From: Gammaproteobacteria bacterium
GTDB taxonomy: Bacteria > Pseudomonadota > Gammaproteobacteria > UBA6429 > Thiohalophilaceae
Direction of reading: 5' to 3'
Length of the DNA: 35,911 nucleotides
Assembly (NCBI GenBank): GCA_026197095.1
Contig: JAPHTF010000201.1
Location: 1 to 35,911, forward strand
Shown here: one piece after another, positions 2,708-8,084 of the stretch
Position numbering within the stretch: the first letter of the stretch is position 1
How the letters are laid out: each line of letters begins with the position of its first letter
Notes under the pieces: generated by a model
The model's input: the letters and a program-made list of their open reading frames with translations, nothing else
Told to the model about the DNA's origin: nothing
Databases searched by the model: none
Program-made: the position numbers and the translations under genes

Positions 2708-3013
2708 ATGAAATACTCACTGATCTTTATCTCATTTGTACTCGCTTCGGCATTTCATGTTGTATCAGCGAAAAGCCAAAAAGAAGTACGTATTGAGTCT
2801 GCTTCCCAATTCCAAAACTGGTGTAAACACCTTTCATATCATTATTTCAGGCAGAAACAACAACAGCCATACAACTGGGTTGCCTCCACTATTCGTCAGT
2901 TAAACGACTACCAGACCTCGGGTAGTTGGAAGATCAATAATGCCGAACGGACTATTTTTTGCCACATTCGCATCGGGAAAAAGGCAAAACAGACCAAAAT
3001 GCAAATCCGCTAA
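2708..3013 (+). CDS. small secreted protein of unknown function
   Basis: A 101-residue protein that I do not recognise. Residues 1-21 form a clear Sec signal peptide (hydrophobic core LIFISFVLASAF, AXA-like site VSA before Lys22), so the mature product of about 80 residues should be periplasmic. It has two cysteines, Cys39 (QNWCKH) and Cys85 (TIFCHI), that could form one disulfide. The mature part is basic, with a Lys/Arg-rich C-terminus. A strong ribosome binding site supports expression. It stands alone between xerC and the tetR promoter, with its own long upstream gap, so it is probably a separate transcription unit. No function is assigned. Confidence 0.7.
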   Translation: MKYSLIFISFVLASAFHVVSAKSQKEVRIESASQFQNWCKHLSYHYFRQKQQQPYNWVASTIRQLNDYQTSGSWKINNAERTIFCHIRIGKKAKQTKMQIR

Positions 3014-3058: not shown

Positions 3059-3094
3059 TGAATAATGAATATTTAATTGATTATTCATTATTCA
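3059..3094. promoter_or_regulatory. palindromic operator candidate for the TetR regulator
   Basis: A perfect 13-bp inverted repeat: arms at 3059-3071 (TGAATAATGAATA) and 3082-3094 (TATTCATTATTCA), separated by 10 nt. It overlaps the -35 box of the predicted tetR promoter and lies 56 nt upstream of the tetR ATG. Long dyads like this next to a tetR gene are typical autoregulatory operators; binding would block RNA polymerase. That TetR binds here is inferred. Confidence 0.65.
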
Positions 3095-3105
3095 TGGTCT
3101 ATAAA
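3077..3105 (+). promoter_or_regulatory. sigma70-type promoter of the tetR cassette
   Basis: TTGATT (3077-3082) and TATAAA (3100-3105) are separated by exactly 17 nt. The predicted transcription start is near 3112, giving a leader of about 38 nt before the ATG at 3150. The operator candidate covers the -35 element. Confidence 0.6.
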
Positions 3106-3149
3106 TACGACCTTACTTATCAAAATTACGTTAAATATGGAAAAAATTG

Positions 3150-3731
3150 ATGACAGAAGAAATTAGTACCCAAATTCTTGATGCGGCAGAAGCACGTTTT
3201 CGTACCTATGGCTTTGGTAAAACCACCATGGCTGAAATTGCTTCTGACATTGATATGTCGACAGCAAATCTATATCGCTATTTTGAGAATAAAATGGCGA
3301 TTGGTTCTGCCATGGCAGAGCGGTGTATTTGTGATAGAGAAACAATTTTAAAGGAGGTTGTGTCTCGTCAGGGTATTACAGAATCCACGCGACTAAAGAT
3401 TTTTGTTTTAGCCATGCTGAATTATGGACACAGCCAGGTTAGCAACGAACCAAAAATGTCCGAGTTAATTGATATCATCATTAAGAAACGAGCTGACATA
3501 GTACAACAACAAGTAAAAACAGATAATGAATTTATTAGCACAATCCTGCAACAGGGCTGTGACAGTGAAGAGTTTGCTATTGAGAACGTAGCTGAAATGG
3601 CCGGGTATGTTCAGGCCGCCATCGTAAAATTTTCCTCTCCTTTTTTTATTAATATGTTTCCCATTGAAGAATTGGAGCGACTCGCCAAAGGGGTGGTGTT
3701 ATTAATTTTGAATGGGTTAGTTAAAAAATAA
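3150..3731 (+). CDS. TetR/AcrR family transcriptional regulator
   Basis: A 193-residue one-component repressor. The N-terminal DNA-binding domain has the TetR helix-turn-helix signature at about residues 25-48 (TTMAEIASDIDMSTANLYRYF); the remainder is an all-helical ligand and dimerisation domain with low conservation. An upstream TTG at 3147 is in frame, but the ATG at 3150, with GGA at 3139-3141 as a spaced binding site, is the better start. The gene lies directly upstream of and on the same strand as the RND transporter, 50 nt apart, so it probably controls its own operon through the palindrome at 3059-3094. The ligand is unknown; by analogy it could be the transported compound or a related lipid. 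Confidence 0.92.
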   Translation: MTEEISTQILDAAEARFRTYGFGKTTMAEIASDIDMSTANLYRYFENKMAIGSAMAERCICDRETILKEVVSRQGITESTRLKIFVLAMLNYGHSQVSNEPKMSELIDIIIKKRADIVQQQVKTDNEFISTILQQGCDSEEFAIENVAEMAGYVQAAIVKFSSPFFINMFPIEELERLAKGVVLLILNGLVKK

Positions 3732-3781
3732 GAATAATTTTTATCCCGAGCCATTCCTGGTAAATTGAATAGGAGCATCAC

Positions 3782-6073
3782 ATGAAAGAGCTGGAAGAAA
3801 GTCTTGGACCATGGGTATTAAAATACCGTTGGTTAATTATCGTATTAACATTATTTTTGGTCTTTGGCGCGGCGAGTGGTGGTCGGTTCCTGGTATTTAA
3901 AGCAGATTACCGTGTTTTCTTTAGTGCTGATAATCCTCAGCTACAAGCCTTCGACAATTTAGAAAAAACATATAGTCACAATGACAATGTACTTTTTGTT
4001 TTGAGTCCTAAAGATGGAAATGTTTTCACGCGCGAAACTTTAAAGGTAATTGAAACCTTAACGGAAAAATCCTGGCAGATTCCGTATTCAACCCGAGTTG
4101 ATTCTATTTCAAATTTTCAACATACCTATGCAGAGGGAGATGATTTAATCGTTGAAGATTTAGTCAGTGATGCGGGCAACTTAAGTAATGCTGATTTAGA
4201 AAAAATTAAAAATATTGCGATAAATGAGCCGCTATTAAAGCAACGCCTAGTCTCTCCTAAAGGACATGTAACATCAGTATCAGCATTAATCACTTTACCT
4301 AACATTGACCAAACCAAAGAAGTCCCCGAAGTGATGAATCATGCACGAAACTTAGCAGAAGAGATTCGTGTCTTAGCACCAAATATCGATGTACGTGTAT
4401 CTGGTATGGTACCCATGAATAATGCCTTTGCAGAAAGTGCACAGGGTGATATGCAAACCTTAGTCCCGATTAGTTTTGCTGTTATGTTTATTATGCTCTT
4501 ATTTTTGTTGAAAAGTTTTTCAACAACGTTTGGTACGATATTAGTGATCTTTTTATCTATCATGACGGGAATGGGATTAGGCGGCTATATTGGTTTCCCC
4601 TTAACCGGACCGTCAGTGTCATCAATGACCATAATATTAACCGTTGCGATTGCAAACTCAGTACATGTTTTAACAACACTTTTACATGGCATGCGAATGG
4701 GTAAAGAGAAAAACAATGCCATTATTGAAACGTTGCGTATTAACTTACAACCTGTTTTCCTTGCCAGCGCAACAACCATGATTGGTTTCTTAACCATGAA
4801 TTTTTCAGATGTTCCGCCATTTCAACACTTAGGTAATTTTGTTGCGATGGGTGTGGTTGCCTCATTTATTCTTTCAGTCACTTTTTTGCCTGCCCTCGTT
4901 TCAGTTTTACCCGTGCGAGTAAAAGTACAAGAGGAAGAGAGTGAGCCGGCGATGGTGAAGTTAGGTGATTTTGTTGTCAGCAAACAGAAGCCATTAATGT
5001 ATGGAATGGGTGCGCTCATTCTTGTTCTGGTTATGTTTGTTTCAAAAAATGAATTGAACGATGTGTTTGTCCATTACTTTGATGAAACAATTGAATTTAG
5101 GCAAGATTCAGATTATGTCGATAAAAATTTAACAGGACTATATATTGTCGATTATTCACTTGTGAGTAGTGAACCGGGTGGAATCAGTGCGCCTGAATAC
5201 TTAAATGAAGTTGAAAGCTTTGCAAACTGGTATCGCCAGCAGCCTGAAACACGTCATGTAAATATTTATACCGAGGTAATTAAGCGCCTTAATAAAAATA
5301 TGCATGGTGATGATAAAAGCTGGATGAAAATACCAGAAGAAAGAAATCTGGCCGCACAATATTTGCTTATGTATGAAATGTCATTACCGTATGGCCTGGA
5401 TTTAAACAATCAAATCAATATTGATAAATCAGCATTACGTATGACCGTTTCAATTAAAACAATGTCGAGTAATGAAATCCTTAGCCTGGAAAAACGTGCT
5501 GCCAAATGGATTACGGATAATGCTAAACATATAAAAGAAGCGAATGGATCAGGTCCAACAGTGATGTTCGCCAATATTGGACAGCGTAATATTAATAGCA
5601 TGCTGATTGGTACAACATTAGCCATGGTGCTTATATCTGCTATCTTAATTATAGCTTTCCGTTCAGTGAAAACAGGCTTAGTCAGTATGGTTCCAAACCT
5701 TGTTCCTGCCGCGATGGGCTTTGGACTATGGGGGATCTTTGTTGGTGAAGTTGGTTTAGGTTTGTCAGTGGTAACTACAATGACACTGGGTATTGTGGTT
5801 GACGATACCGTTCATTTTTTAAGTAAGTATCTTCGTGCCAAACGGGAATATGGTTATACCGCAGAAAATGCTGTTCGTTATGCCTTTACTCATGTTGGTC
5901 GTGCATTACTGACAACCTCAATCGTACTTGTGGCCGGCTTTATGGTGCTTGCCCAGTCACACTTTGCACTGAACTCAGGCATGGGTTTGTTAACAGCGAT
6001 AATTATTACATTCGCGTTACTGGCAGATTTCTTCTTCCTGCCACCACTATTAATGAAACTGGAGAAAAAATAA
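3782..6073 (+). CDS. RND superfamily transporter, MMPL type
   Basis: A 763-residue inner-membrane RND-superfamily exporter of the MMPL/HpnN-like group. There are two repeats, each with one membrane helix, a periplasmic loop of about 170-200 residues, then five helices. Helix 1 is near residues 17-37 and the second repeat starts near residue 405. The second half keeps an acidic proton-relay pair, Asp674-Asp675 in GIVVDDTVHF. The equivalent place in the first half reads AIANSVH, with Asn292 in place of an acid. AGGAGC at 3771-3776 is a good binding site. The stop overlaps the ATG of the LolA-like gene by 1 nt (TAATG), so the two are coupled. This type usually moves lipids or other hydrophobic molecules; it is not an AcrB-type drug pump, being shorter and lacking a visible adaptor gene. 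Confidence 0.9.
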   Translation: MKELEESLGPWVLKYRWLIIVLTLFLVFGAASGGRFLVFKADYRVFFSADNPQLQAFDNLEKTYSHNDNVLFVLSPKDGNVFTRETLKVIETLTEKSWQIPYSTRVDSISNFQHTYAEGDDLIVEDLVSDAGNLSNADLEKIKNIAINEPLLKQRLVSPKGHVTSVSALITLPNIDQTKEVPEVMNHARNLAEEIRVLAPNIDVRVSGMVPMNNAFAESAQGDMQTLVPISFAVMFIMLLFLLKSFSTTFGTILVIFLSIMTGMGLGGYIGFPLTGPSVSSMTIILTVAIANSVHVLTTLLHGMRMGKEKNNAIIETLRINLQPVFLASATTMIGFLTMNFSDVPPFQHLGNFVAMGVVASFILSVTFLPALVSVLPVRVKVQEEESEPAMVKLGDFVVSKQKPLMYGMGALILVLVMFVSKNELNDVFVHYFDETIEFRQDSDYVDKNLTGLYIVDYSLVSSEPGGISAPEYLNEVESFANWYRQQPETRHVNIYTEVIKRLNKNMHGDDKSWMKIPEERNLAAQYLLMYEMSLPYGLDLNNQINIDKSALRMTVSIKTMSSNEILSLEKRAAKWITDNAKHIKEANGSGPTVMFANIGQRNINSMLIGTTLAMVLISAILIIAFRSVKTGLVSMVPNLVPAAMGFGLWGIFVGEVGLGLSVVTTMTLGIVVDDTVHFLSKYLRAKREYGYTAENAVRYAFTHVGRALLTTSIVLVAGFMVLAQSHFALNSGMGLLTAIIITFALLADFFFLPPLLMKLEKK

Positions 6074-6852
6074 TGAAAGGAATAATTTTATTATCAGGCT
6101 TACTTGCTTTTAGCGGTGCAAGTTTTGCAGAAACAGCTGAAGAAAAAGGTCTGGCAATTGCAGTAGAAGCAGATAAACGTGATCAAGGTTGGGGCGATCA
6201 AGCCACAATATCGAAAATGATTTTGCGCAATAGTCAGGGTGCTGAAAGTACGCGTGAGATCAGAGGCAAAGCATTAGAAGTAGAAGGTGACGGAGATAAA
6301 TCACTAACAATTTTTGATACTCCGGCTGATGTCAAGGGAACGGCCTTTTTAAGTTTTACACATACCTTGGATGCTGATGAACAATGGTTATATTTACCTG
6401 CACTAAAACGGGTAAAACGAATTTCGTCATCAAATAAATCGGGTCCGTTTATGGGCAGTGAATTTGCTTATGAGGATATCTCTTCTCAGGAAGTGGCAAA
6501 ATATAAATACAGATTTATTAAAGACGATAAATTTAATGGCCGCGATGTTTTTGTTATTGAGCGTATCCCGCAGTATGTAAAATCAGGCTATACAAAACAA
6601 ATTACATGGTTAGACAAGGAAATGTATCAGCCACTTAAAATTGAATTTTATGATCGTAAAAAAAGTTTATTAAAAACATTAACGCAACATGATTATAAGA
6701 AACATGTGAATAAGTTCTGGCGTCCAGGTCGACTTGAGATGGTTAATCATCAAACCGGAAAAAGTACGACATTGATCTGGAAATCGTATAAGTTTAACAA
6801 TGGTTTTAGTAGTCGTGATTTTGATCGCAATAGTCTCAAGCGCGCACGTTAG
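6073..6852 (+). CDS. LolA-like outer membrane lipoprotein-sorting family protein
   Basis: A 259-residue periplasmic protein with a Sec signal peptide (residues 1-19, SFA before Glu20) and no lipobox cysteine. The mature part matches the family annotated as outer membrane lipoprotein-sorting protein (LolA-like fold, PF17131 as I recall it). The hallmark segment at about residues 100-135 reads DEQWLYLPALKRVKRISS, then NKSGPFMGSEFAYEDIS. Proteins of this fold form an open half-barrel that carries acyl chains or other hydrophobic cargo. Genes of this family commonly follow an MMPL-type RND gene, as here with a 1-nt overlap, so it probably accepts the cargo of the transporter. It is unlikely to be the housekeeping LolA, which is shorter and not linked to RND genes. 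Confidence 0.85.
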   Translation: MKGIILLSGLLAFSGASFAETAEEKGLAIAVEADKRDQGWGDQATISKMILRNSQGAESTREIRGKALEVEGDGDKSLTIFDTPADVKGTAFLSFTHTLDADEQWLYLPALKRVKRISSSNKSGPFMGSEFAYEDISSQEVAKYKYRFIKDDKFNGRDVFVIERIPQYVKSGYTKQITWLDKEMYQPLKIEFYDRKKSLLKTLTQHDYKKHVNKFWRPGRLEMVNHQTGKSTTLIWKSYKFNNGFSSRDFDRNSLKRAR

Positions 6853-6884
6853 AGTATTGATATTTTGATTTAGTGGAGTTGAAT

Positions 6885-8084
6885 ATGAGAAAGGGTTTTC
6901 TATCGCTATTCGTTGTTAGTTTAACTACGTTATGGATAAATATGTTGTCGGCAAGTGAATGGTCCGGTGACGTTTCATTTCAGGCACGTCACTTTAGCCA
7001 GGATGCATTATCTTCTTCACAGTTTAATCAATATGGTTCTGTTGCAATTAAAGCGCAGTGGTATCACGAATGGGATGATGGTAAACAACTCATGACATTT
7101 TCTCCTTTTACGCGTTGGGATCACCATGATAAAGAACGCACACATTCGGATATACGCGAATTAAGCTGGTTAAAAGTCTTTAATGCCTCTGAATTAAGAG
7201 TAGGTGTTCGTAAGGTTTTTTGGGGCGTGTCGGAGTCGCAACATCTTGTTGATGTTATAAACCAAACCGATTTAGTAGAAAGTATGGATGGTGAACAAAA
7301 GCTCGGCCAACCCATGATTAACTATGCAATGATTCAGGACTGGGGGACGGTAGATTTATTTATCCTGCCTTATTTTCGTGAACGCACATTTGCAGGCGTG
7401 AATGGACGATTACGCACTGCATTATATGTCGACACGACGAGTCCAATATACGAGTCTGGCGATAAACAAAATCATATTGATTATGCTGTGCGCTGGATAC
7501 ACAGTATCGGTGATTGGGATATTGGTTTAAGCCATTTTGATGGTACAAGTCGTGACCCTTTATTTGAAGCAGGGCTTGATGCGAGTGGTAACCCGGTGTT
7601 GAGGCCTGTGTATAATTTGATGCAACAAACGGGACTTGATTTACAGGCAACAAAGGGGGCATGGCTTTGGAAAGTCGAAGCGATTAATCGACATATTAAT
7701 AACGAGAGTTACTATGCTGCTACAGCAGGCTTTGAATATACCTTTAATGGTGTGTTCGAAAGTGCTTCTGATATTGGTTTGGTAGTGGAGTATTTATATG
7801 ATGATCGTAATAGCACTGCGACAACACCTTTTGAAGATGATTATATGCTTGGGTTGCGCTGGACTAAAAATGACGCGAAAGATACAACAGTACTCGTGGG
7901 TGTCATTGCGGATAGAGATGACAGCTCACGTTTATACAGTATTGAAGCGAGCCGACGCTTAGCTGAAGGCTGGAAATTAAATATCGAAGCACGTGTATTT
8001 AATGGAATTACCGATTCTAACAGCCCACTGTATTCATTACGTCAGGATGATTTTGTGCAGGTAGAAGTCGGATACTATTTTTAA
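6885..8084 (+). CDS. outer-membrane beta-barrel protein of the RND/LolA-like cassette
   Basis: A 399-residue predicted outer-membrane protein. The signal peptide spans residues 1-23 (LSA before Ser24). The rest alternates polar and aromatic residues in short strands, as in beta-barrels, and the chain ends in Val-Gly-Tyr-Tyr-Phe, a C-terminal aromatic signal for BAM-dependent insertion. The segment VGVRKVFWGVSESQHLVDVI is typical of barrels that accompany MMPL/LolA-like genes; it resembles the DUF1302 group, but I cannot confirm the family. An in-frame GTG at 6873 would add four residues, but GGAG at 6875-6878 is correctly spaced for the ATG at 6885. It is probably the outer-membrane component or entry/exit port for the cassette substrate. 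Confidence 0.8.
   Translation: MRKGFLSLFVVSLTTLWINMLSASEWSGDVSFQARHFSQDALSSSQFNQYGSVAIKAQWYHEWDDGKQLMTFSPFTRWDHHDKERTHSDIRELSWLKVFNASELRVGVRKVFWGVSESQHLVDVINQTDLVESMDGEQKLGQPMINYAMIQDWGTVDLFILPYFRERTFAGVNGRLRTALYVDTTSPIYESGDKQNHIDYAVRWIHSIGDWDIGLSHFDGTSRDPLFEAGLDASGNPVLRPVYNLMQQTGLDLQATKGAWLWKVEAINRHINNESYYAATAGFEYTFNGVFESASDIGLVVEYLYDDRNSTATTPFEDDYMLGLRWTKNDAKDTTVLVGVIADRDDSSRLYSIEASRRLAEGWKLNIEARVFNGITDSNSPLYSLRQDDFVQVEVGYYF

Follow-up and report, generated by a model that had tools for sequence, protein, structure and literature searches.

A conserved MMPL, LolA-like and outer-membrane barrel trio with its own TetR regulator, a candidate exporter of amphipathic lipids in Gammaproteobacteria

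Positions 3,059 to 8,084 of contig JAPHTF010000201.1 (assembly GCA_026197095.1), from a gammaproteobacterium of the family Thiohalophilaceae, carry an operon for a TetR-family regulator, an inner-membrane transporter of the MMPL/RND type, a periplasmic LolA_like carrier and an outer-membrane beta barrel. The three structural genes form a solid unit that recurs across the class, and the operon probably encodes a proton-driven exporter of an amphipathic lipid, in which a LolA-fold shuttle would deliver its cargo to the system's own barrel. Throughout, the window is the whole stretch of DNA that was analysed, 35,911 nucleotides in length.

Organisation of the operon

An initial annotation, made from the sequence alone, described four same-strand genes for a regulator, an RND protein, a LolA-fold protein and a barrel, and all four were found on the plus strand, with families assigned by Pfam for all except the barrel. 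The order is an operator-like palindrome (3059-3094), the TetR gene (3150-3731), the MMPL gene (3782-6073, HAE3-like), the LolA_like gene (6073-6852) and the barrel gene (6885-8084), followed by a convergent DUF2797 gene. The TAATG overlap already reported between the RND and LolA-like genes lies at 6071-6075, where the MMPL stop and the LolA_like start share one base, and the short spacing noted ahead of the barrel gene was measured at 32 bases. The TetR reading frame is taken from the ATG at 3150, just after an in-frame TTG at 3147, and the barrel from the ATG at 6885, for which the list of open reading frames (ORFs) had given a GTG at 6873. Only these four genes lie between the operator and the DUF2797 gene, and a further cassette gene, of the type of the second periplasmic component AmeC, is absent from this interval.

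Conservation of the trio

Co-occurrence was measured in an independent sample of 369 Gammaproteobacteria genomes in which each protein was searched, giving 368 genomes besides the window's own. Among these genomes, which are related to one another and whose counts are thus not independent, the barrel was found in 122, the LolA gene in 116 and the MMPL gene in at least 120 (the latter count using 120 of the 124 other genomes with MMPL matches). The three structural genes, whose joint presence elsewhere is central to the initial annotation, clearly co-occur: all three are found in at least 112 of the 368, about a third, three-way counts being lower bounds. The barrel and the LolA gene are found together in 115, the barrel alone in 7 and the LolA gene alone in 1, leaving out barrel matches weaker than E 2.1e-66 and LolA matches weaker than E 2.4e-61, which drops genome G009 and the second fragments of G099 and G215.

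The genes are also close neighbours. A LolA match lies within 2.5 kb of 107 of 129 barrel matches, and both partners are close by for at least 83 of 128 LolA matches, contig ends breaking some of the others. Scanning one genome for each species yielded 215 confirmed stretches, the best 80 of which are called the close loci here. In the 63 loci with enough flank (no less than 2.4 kb ahead of the LolA gene and 1.25 kb behind it) the MMPL gene was adjacent in 55, the barrel gene in 58, and the full MMPL-LolA-barrel arrangement was present in 51. Gene starts were placed naively at the first start codon, so adjacency is undercounted; at L115 and L121 an MMPL ORF does precede the LolA gene.

In two genomes pump and carrier are fused, in single frames of 1069 and 1102 amino acids with a barrel gene adjoining, and the linker is a remnant signal-peptide-like stretch; single frames in metagenome-assembled genomes may be assembly errors, and the same domain make-up is described for TOL_3187 of Thalassolituus in the available part of its report (PMC6304351). 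Among the open-access literature matches listed, no paper was found that describes TetR, MMPL, LolA_like and barrel as a unit.

Pump and carrier

The transporter matches the Pfam family MMPL at 141.7 bits (cut-off 20.5), and its best NCBIfam match is HAE3 (TIGR00921), below cut-off at 168.8 against 351.9 bits; the NCBIfam cut-offs for HpnN and BstA were not reached. The pair D674-D675, in a predicted helix spanning residues 661-690, is invariant in 67 of 67 aligned MMPL sequences longer than 650 amino acids, and the matching site of the first half is asparagine in 34 and aspartate in 30 of the 67. An acidic pair in a transmembrane helix of RND proteins is the proton relay. Foldseek placed MmpL4, MmpL5 and MmpL3 on top for the predicted model (predicted local distance difference test, pLDDT, 87.6), NPC1L1 and HpnN coming 22nd and 23rd, and VIA-align gave Z 43-46 across the whole RND superfamily, including drug pumps and Patched, so that no subfamily was singled out.

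The carrier matches PF17131 LolA_like at 221.2 bits (cut-off 30) and, over part of its length, also DUF1329 above cut-off (44.2 against 23.1 bits), and it is near kin of the solved structure 3bk5 (E 6.7e-98). Its signal peptide, judged by eye, has no lipobox cysteine, and together with the PF17131 match it bears out the earlier description as a signal-peptide LolA-fold protein; a lipobox scan of 66 carrier N-termini gave 1 pattern match, within the signal helix of L080. Two other LolA_like genes in the same genome, L125 (G000:C143) and L126 (G000:C171), adjoin MacB-type ABC permeases and ATPases, in one case followed by a gene with a weak, below-cut-off match to outer-membrane barrels. Carriers of the LolA_like family thus seem to be combined with more than one kind of engine. 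Separately, an odd fusion was seen at L128:2221-4896, an 891-amino-acid frame with response-regulator receiver domains and a C-terminal LolA_like domain.

The outer-membrane barrel

The barrel has no Pfam match above any cut-off, its only match being to the PelB barrel domain at 20 bits (cut-off 31). Across 67 barrel members no known porin or export family was matched at E <= 1 (15 families listed), and neither the OprD/Occ nor the AlgE sequence profile is among those listed. The C-terminal aromatic signal noted earlier was confirmed as a final phenylalanine, which is kept in 64 of 69 aligned sequences. The likeness to sets with a DUF1302 barrel, drawn in the initial annotation, did not hold up for the barrel by Pfam: 0 of the 67 members matched DUF1302 at E <= 1, its presence in the library copy being assumed, and the PDB fold matches listed have no row named DUF1302, which is not evidence of absence.

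Structure prediction from 67 sequences instead gave an OprD/AlgE-type fold (pLDDT 94.8) of 18 strands, counted from the DSSP line. VIA-align superposed the model on OccAB3 with Z 23.5 and a root-mean-square deviation of 3.4 over 309 residues, and on AlgE with Z 22.9 and 3.2 over 302 residues, at 10-11% identity; by Foldseek the lowest E-values were to general porins (a 289-residue porin), and AlgE also ranked high. The protein is thus predicted to be an OprD/AlgE-type pore, in the sense of likeness of fold and not of family membership.

The less hydrophobic face of each strand was taken as the lumen face. This face has a mean entropy of 1.07 bits, against 1.95 bits for the membrane face, and carries charged residues at 36 of 107 positions, against 8 of 110, the charge contrast being partly built in by the hydrophobicity-based choice of face and the conservation contrast not. 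The loop joining strands 5 and 6 (residues 110-141) belongs to the best-conserved regions (0.70 against 1.57 bits overall). On this model the barrel resembles a substrate-bearing pore in which the path is polar. The initial annotation had proposed a hydrophobic substrate moved across the whole envelope; each compartment has one protein that would take part in such transport, but a conserved, charge-rich lumen face suits a purely hydrophobic substrate less well than an amphipathic one.

The TetR regulator and its operator

The regulator matches TetR_N (43.7 bits) and TetR_C_27 (38.9 bits). The putative operator upstream is an 18+18 palindrome with 89% complementary arms, which outscores 200 of 200 dinucleotide shuffles of its region, and its core, TGAATATT-TAATTG-ATTATTCA at 3066-3087, has one mismatch to the family motif TGAATATT-N6-AATATTCA. 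Matches with up to three mismatches were sought in an operator zone from 160 bp upstream to 20 bp inside the TetR gene. Among loci with an orthologous TetR (at least 200 bits, a threshold chosen after seeing a score gap from 176 to 222), 34 of 37 carry the motif in this zone, against 0 of 11 loci with a distant TetR; in the 3 exceptions it sits between TetR and MMPL. The loci being mutually related, a Fisher test on these counts overstates the strength of the association. Over the 48 loci (547,764 bases) 39 of 64 motif matches fall in the operator zone. A TetR gene is upstream in 43 of 52 loci with an adjacent MMPL gene and enough flank. The motif is absent at both fusion loci; the TetR of one is distant (47 bits), and at the other TetR was not matched at all.

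The conserved position of the motif supports control of the operon by TetR. Regulator and site are exchanged jointly and the trio is kept, so that the TetR resembles, in these comparisons, a plug-in regulator.

A wider regulon was considered and rejected: a scan of the window's own genome at up to three mismatches found 87 places against 54 for a reversed control, and the relaxed pattern is therefore not specific. One-mismatch sites number three in the genome, namely the window's, one between ORFs and one inside an ORF. The intergenic site, on L132 (G000:C26), is upstream of an ORF whose sequence resembles Hcp of type VI secretion systems, beside an Hcp/VgrG-like region, and is probably due to chance. 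AtrR of V. cholerae, whose title suggested a match, controls vexRAB and tolC, and no link to the operon was found in the available part of that paper (PMC10805010).

Biosynthetic context of divergent relatives

Neighbouring genes were sought with single-query phmmer (E 1e-8, ORFs of at least 110 amino acids) in flanks of up to 6 kb for close loci, many of them shorter, and in longer flanks for most others. The others comprise 24 loci hand-picked from weaker matches and plasmid records, a non-random and mostly divergent set that includes a few near relatives, and 5 of these 24 have biosynthetic genes of the kinds sought, namely polyketide synthase (PKS), ketoacyl synthase (KS), AMP-binding, condensation or oxoamine-type genes. 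At L158 the order is PKS (KS-AT-DH-KR-ACP), class I/II aminotransferase, MMPL, LolA and barrel, with every neighbouring pair overlapping; its proteins are 36% (MMPL), 41% (LolA) and 29% (barrel) identical to those of the window. The Sulfitobacter plasmid pDSM110093_b (L175) carries condensation proteins, a Mur-ligase-like protein, PKS, MMPL, LolA, galE, barrel and glycosyltransferases. L159 and L160 share the order AMP-binding, aminotransferase-III, AMP-binding, LolA and MMPL, with no barrel match in the fetched stretch, and at L153 (Halioglobus) an AMP-binding gene and a FAD protein precede the trio. These arrangements are reminiscent of the mycobacterial Pap-Pks-MmpL lipid clusters.

The context of these divergent copies speaks for amphiphiles of acyl or polyketide origin as the exported substrates, in line with the polar lumen; the TetR-controlled branch need not handle the same kind of molecule. 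As a separate observation, L175 also has cysDN further along and may be an alphaproteobacterial cluster for a sulfated glycolipid. Aryl-polyene clusters contain an MMPL/LolA pair of the same protein families as the window, and the initial annotation had compared the cassette with them, but no ketoacyl synthase lies beside the window copy, and a pairing of MMPL with a ketoacyl synthase in this genome is on another contig, C81; the operon is accordingly not its polyene-type exporter.

Distribution and mobility

Within the genus, 5 of 7 other sampled genomes have a LolA match at 73-91% identity, the remaining 2 being incomplete with weak LolA matches only, and in several further members of the family the LolA gene is missing or only weakly matched. 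In a phylum-wide sample the barrel was found at E <= 1e-30 in 40 of 398 genomes, the window's own counted. Copies from Nitrospinaceae form one main group in quick trees of both MMPL and barrel, with a few Nitrospinota and Nitrospirota rows outside it; L085, labelled Emcibacteraceae, falls inside Nitrospinaceae in both trees, probably through a binning or label error.

Barrel matches occur in six plasmid records, and the four examined each have all three genes: Photobacterium sp. GJ3, on a 1.7-Mb replicon and with a distant TetR, Halioglobus pacificus, Sulfitobacter sp. DSM 110093 and Pseudoalteromonas rhizosphaerae. The trio on plasmid p1 of the last (L151) adjoins the gamma-mobile-trio genes gmtX and gmtY, which suggests that it is mobile cargo there. 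The patchy spread, seen both in the class and in the genus, and the plasmid carriage do not favour the housekeeping lipid suggested earlier as substrate.

Proposed mechanism and alternative readings

In the mechanism that we infer, TetR would repress the operon at 3059-3094 until it is released by a ligand, which is probably the transported substrate or a related compound. The MMPL protein, driven by protons through its invariant aspartate pair, would lift an acyl- or polyketide-derived amphipathic lipid from the inner membrane into its periplasmic domains, and the LolA-fold protein, whose gene overlaps or is fused with that of the pump, would take the lipid across the periplasm in its hydrophobic groove, presumably by way of contacts between the proteins. 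The dedicated 18-strand barrel, with its conserved charged lumen face and conserved loop, would then pass the lipid to the outer surface or the medium.

Several observations weigh against lipid export of this kind. The fetched flanks of all 80 close loci lacked the biosynthetic gene types sought; such context is confined to more distant copies, and 2 of the 5 loci concerned have no barrel match. The trio sometimes splits, as 22 of 129 barrel matches have no LolA gene within 2.5 kb, some of them at contig ends, and at L151 the barrel gene is divergent from LolA and MMPL. A charged lumen face is also unusual for a lipid path.

The closest published systems, in the available parts of their reports, are AmeABCD of Castellaniella and TOL_3187/3188 of Thalassolituus. 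AmeABCD of Castellaniella defragrans likewise combines an HAE3 RND pump, a LolA-superfamily periplasmic protein and an outer-membrane protein, with hydrophobic substrates, and its deletion lowers monoterpene tolerance (PMC6394551). The window carrier shares with it the partial DUF1329 match. As described there, the AmeABCD barrel is a DUF1302 protein and a fourth protein, AmeC (COG4447), is present (PMC6394551), whereas the window, compared by description, has no DUF1302 match, a carrier matching PF17131 best, no AmeC and a TetR of its own. The AmeABCD phenotype (PMC6394551), control by TetR through a local operator, patchy spread with plasmid carriage and the lack of the sought neighbours in all 80 close loci would all suit a general efflux or tolerance system for hydrophobic toxins from outside, such as terpenes, alkanes or free fatty acids, instead of a self-made lipid, a role that AmeABCD seems to have. 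The conserved, charge-rich barrel lumen face and the ties of some divergent relatives to PKS and acyl-activating genes argue against toxin efflux, which we consider unlikely, though it deserves to be taken seriously.

Import, in which the barrel would admit a hydrophobic nutrient and carrier and MMPL bring it inward, draws on TOL_3187 and TOL_3188 of Thalassolituus oleivorans MIL-1, both raised on the n-C28 alkane (42-fold; exclusively). Their authors proposed a part in alkane uptake, with the pair supporting entry of long-chain alkanes into the cell, which also speaks against lipid export (PMC6304351). Likened to the window by description and not by sequence, the pair joins MMPL and LolA-like domains, directly followed by a porin-like protein without conserved domain, and differs in having pump and carrier domains in one protein; the available part of the paper mentions no TetR neighbour (PMC6304351). 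Import is improbable. Published descriptions have HAE3 pumps delivering their substrates to the periplasm and HpnN taking hopanoids outward, away from the inner membrane (PMC6394551); around the window copy the genes examined include no catabolic one, and some divergent relatives come after biosynthetic genes. A variant of lipoprotein sorting, with LolA_like carrying lipoproteins and MMPL replacing LolCDE, has the LolA superfamily and family name in its favour and is very improbable given co-inheritance with a porin-like barrel and an RND engine of MmpL type.

Of other systems, HpnN and BstABC, for hopanoid and sterol transport, resemble the exporter proposed here in having a lipid-moving RND pump, and BstABC spans three compartments; BstC is outer-membrane-associated and, in the available text, not described as a barrel (PMC10942540), and the main text does not name LolA (PMC10942540). 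Tripartite RND pumps (HAE1, membrane fusion protein and TolC) are unlike the operon, whose carrier is LolA_like and whose barrel is porin-like. An HAE3 pump with a LolA-superfamily carrier and a barrel is a known kind of system, which the operon presents with an unnamed barrel family and a TetR-operator system of its own.

Surroundings of the operon

The neighbours of the operon include genes that we take from their translations to be dapF, xerC, hemE and gltBD, and Pfam assigned other window genes to SPOR/AAA, HD, aroB-type, secretin, PilM, PilN, penicillin-binding protein, malic enzyme, SNase and Rho families (beyond 16.5 kb the scan covered 10 of 14 listed ORFs of at least 140 amino acids). 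As far as looked, these are housekeeping or surface genes, and the earlier statement that no biosynthetic or catabolic gene lies nearby holds among the window genes examined by translation and Pfam. Consensus-like promoter sites were no commoner than expected (15 seen, 22.2 expected) and so give no promoter evidence; terminator-like sites exceed shuffles (10 against 4.9), and none was found on the plus strand directly 3' of the barrel gene.

A 101-amino-acid secreted ORF at 2708-3013, between xerC and the operator, has no Pfam match. Good tblastn matches to it among the loci examined are limited to the near relatives L045 and L047 (64-67%), and it was rejected as a fifth cassette gene on that account. 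Downstream of the trio in other lineages, a 435-amino-acid group (4 loci) belongs to the impB/mucB family of DNA polymerases and for a 442-amino-acid group (9 loci) Pfam and PDB gave nothing convincing; neither gives a functional clue.

Implications

Little is known of how Gram-negative bacteria bring lipids other than lipopolysaccharide and lipoproteins to their outer surface. Tentatively, the trio may represent a widespread and unrecognised surface route for amphipathic (poly)ketide or acyl lipids in such bacteria. It would combine an MMPL pump of mycobacterial type with a LolA-fold shuttle and a barrel family of its own that has no name, and would work under exchangeable TetR regulators and, in some divergent lineages, alongside genes for PKS, acyl activation, aminotransferases and glycosyltransferases. 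If true, this route would be separate from Lpt, Mla, Lol and the TolC pumps. The trio has one protein per compartment, and the three are linked by co-inheritance, gene overlap and natural fusion. Its outer-membrane member has no Pfam family despite its presence in about a third of the class genomes sampled, and the divergent copies in PKS operons give concrete candidate products.

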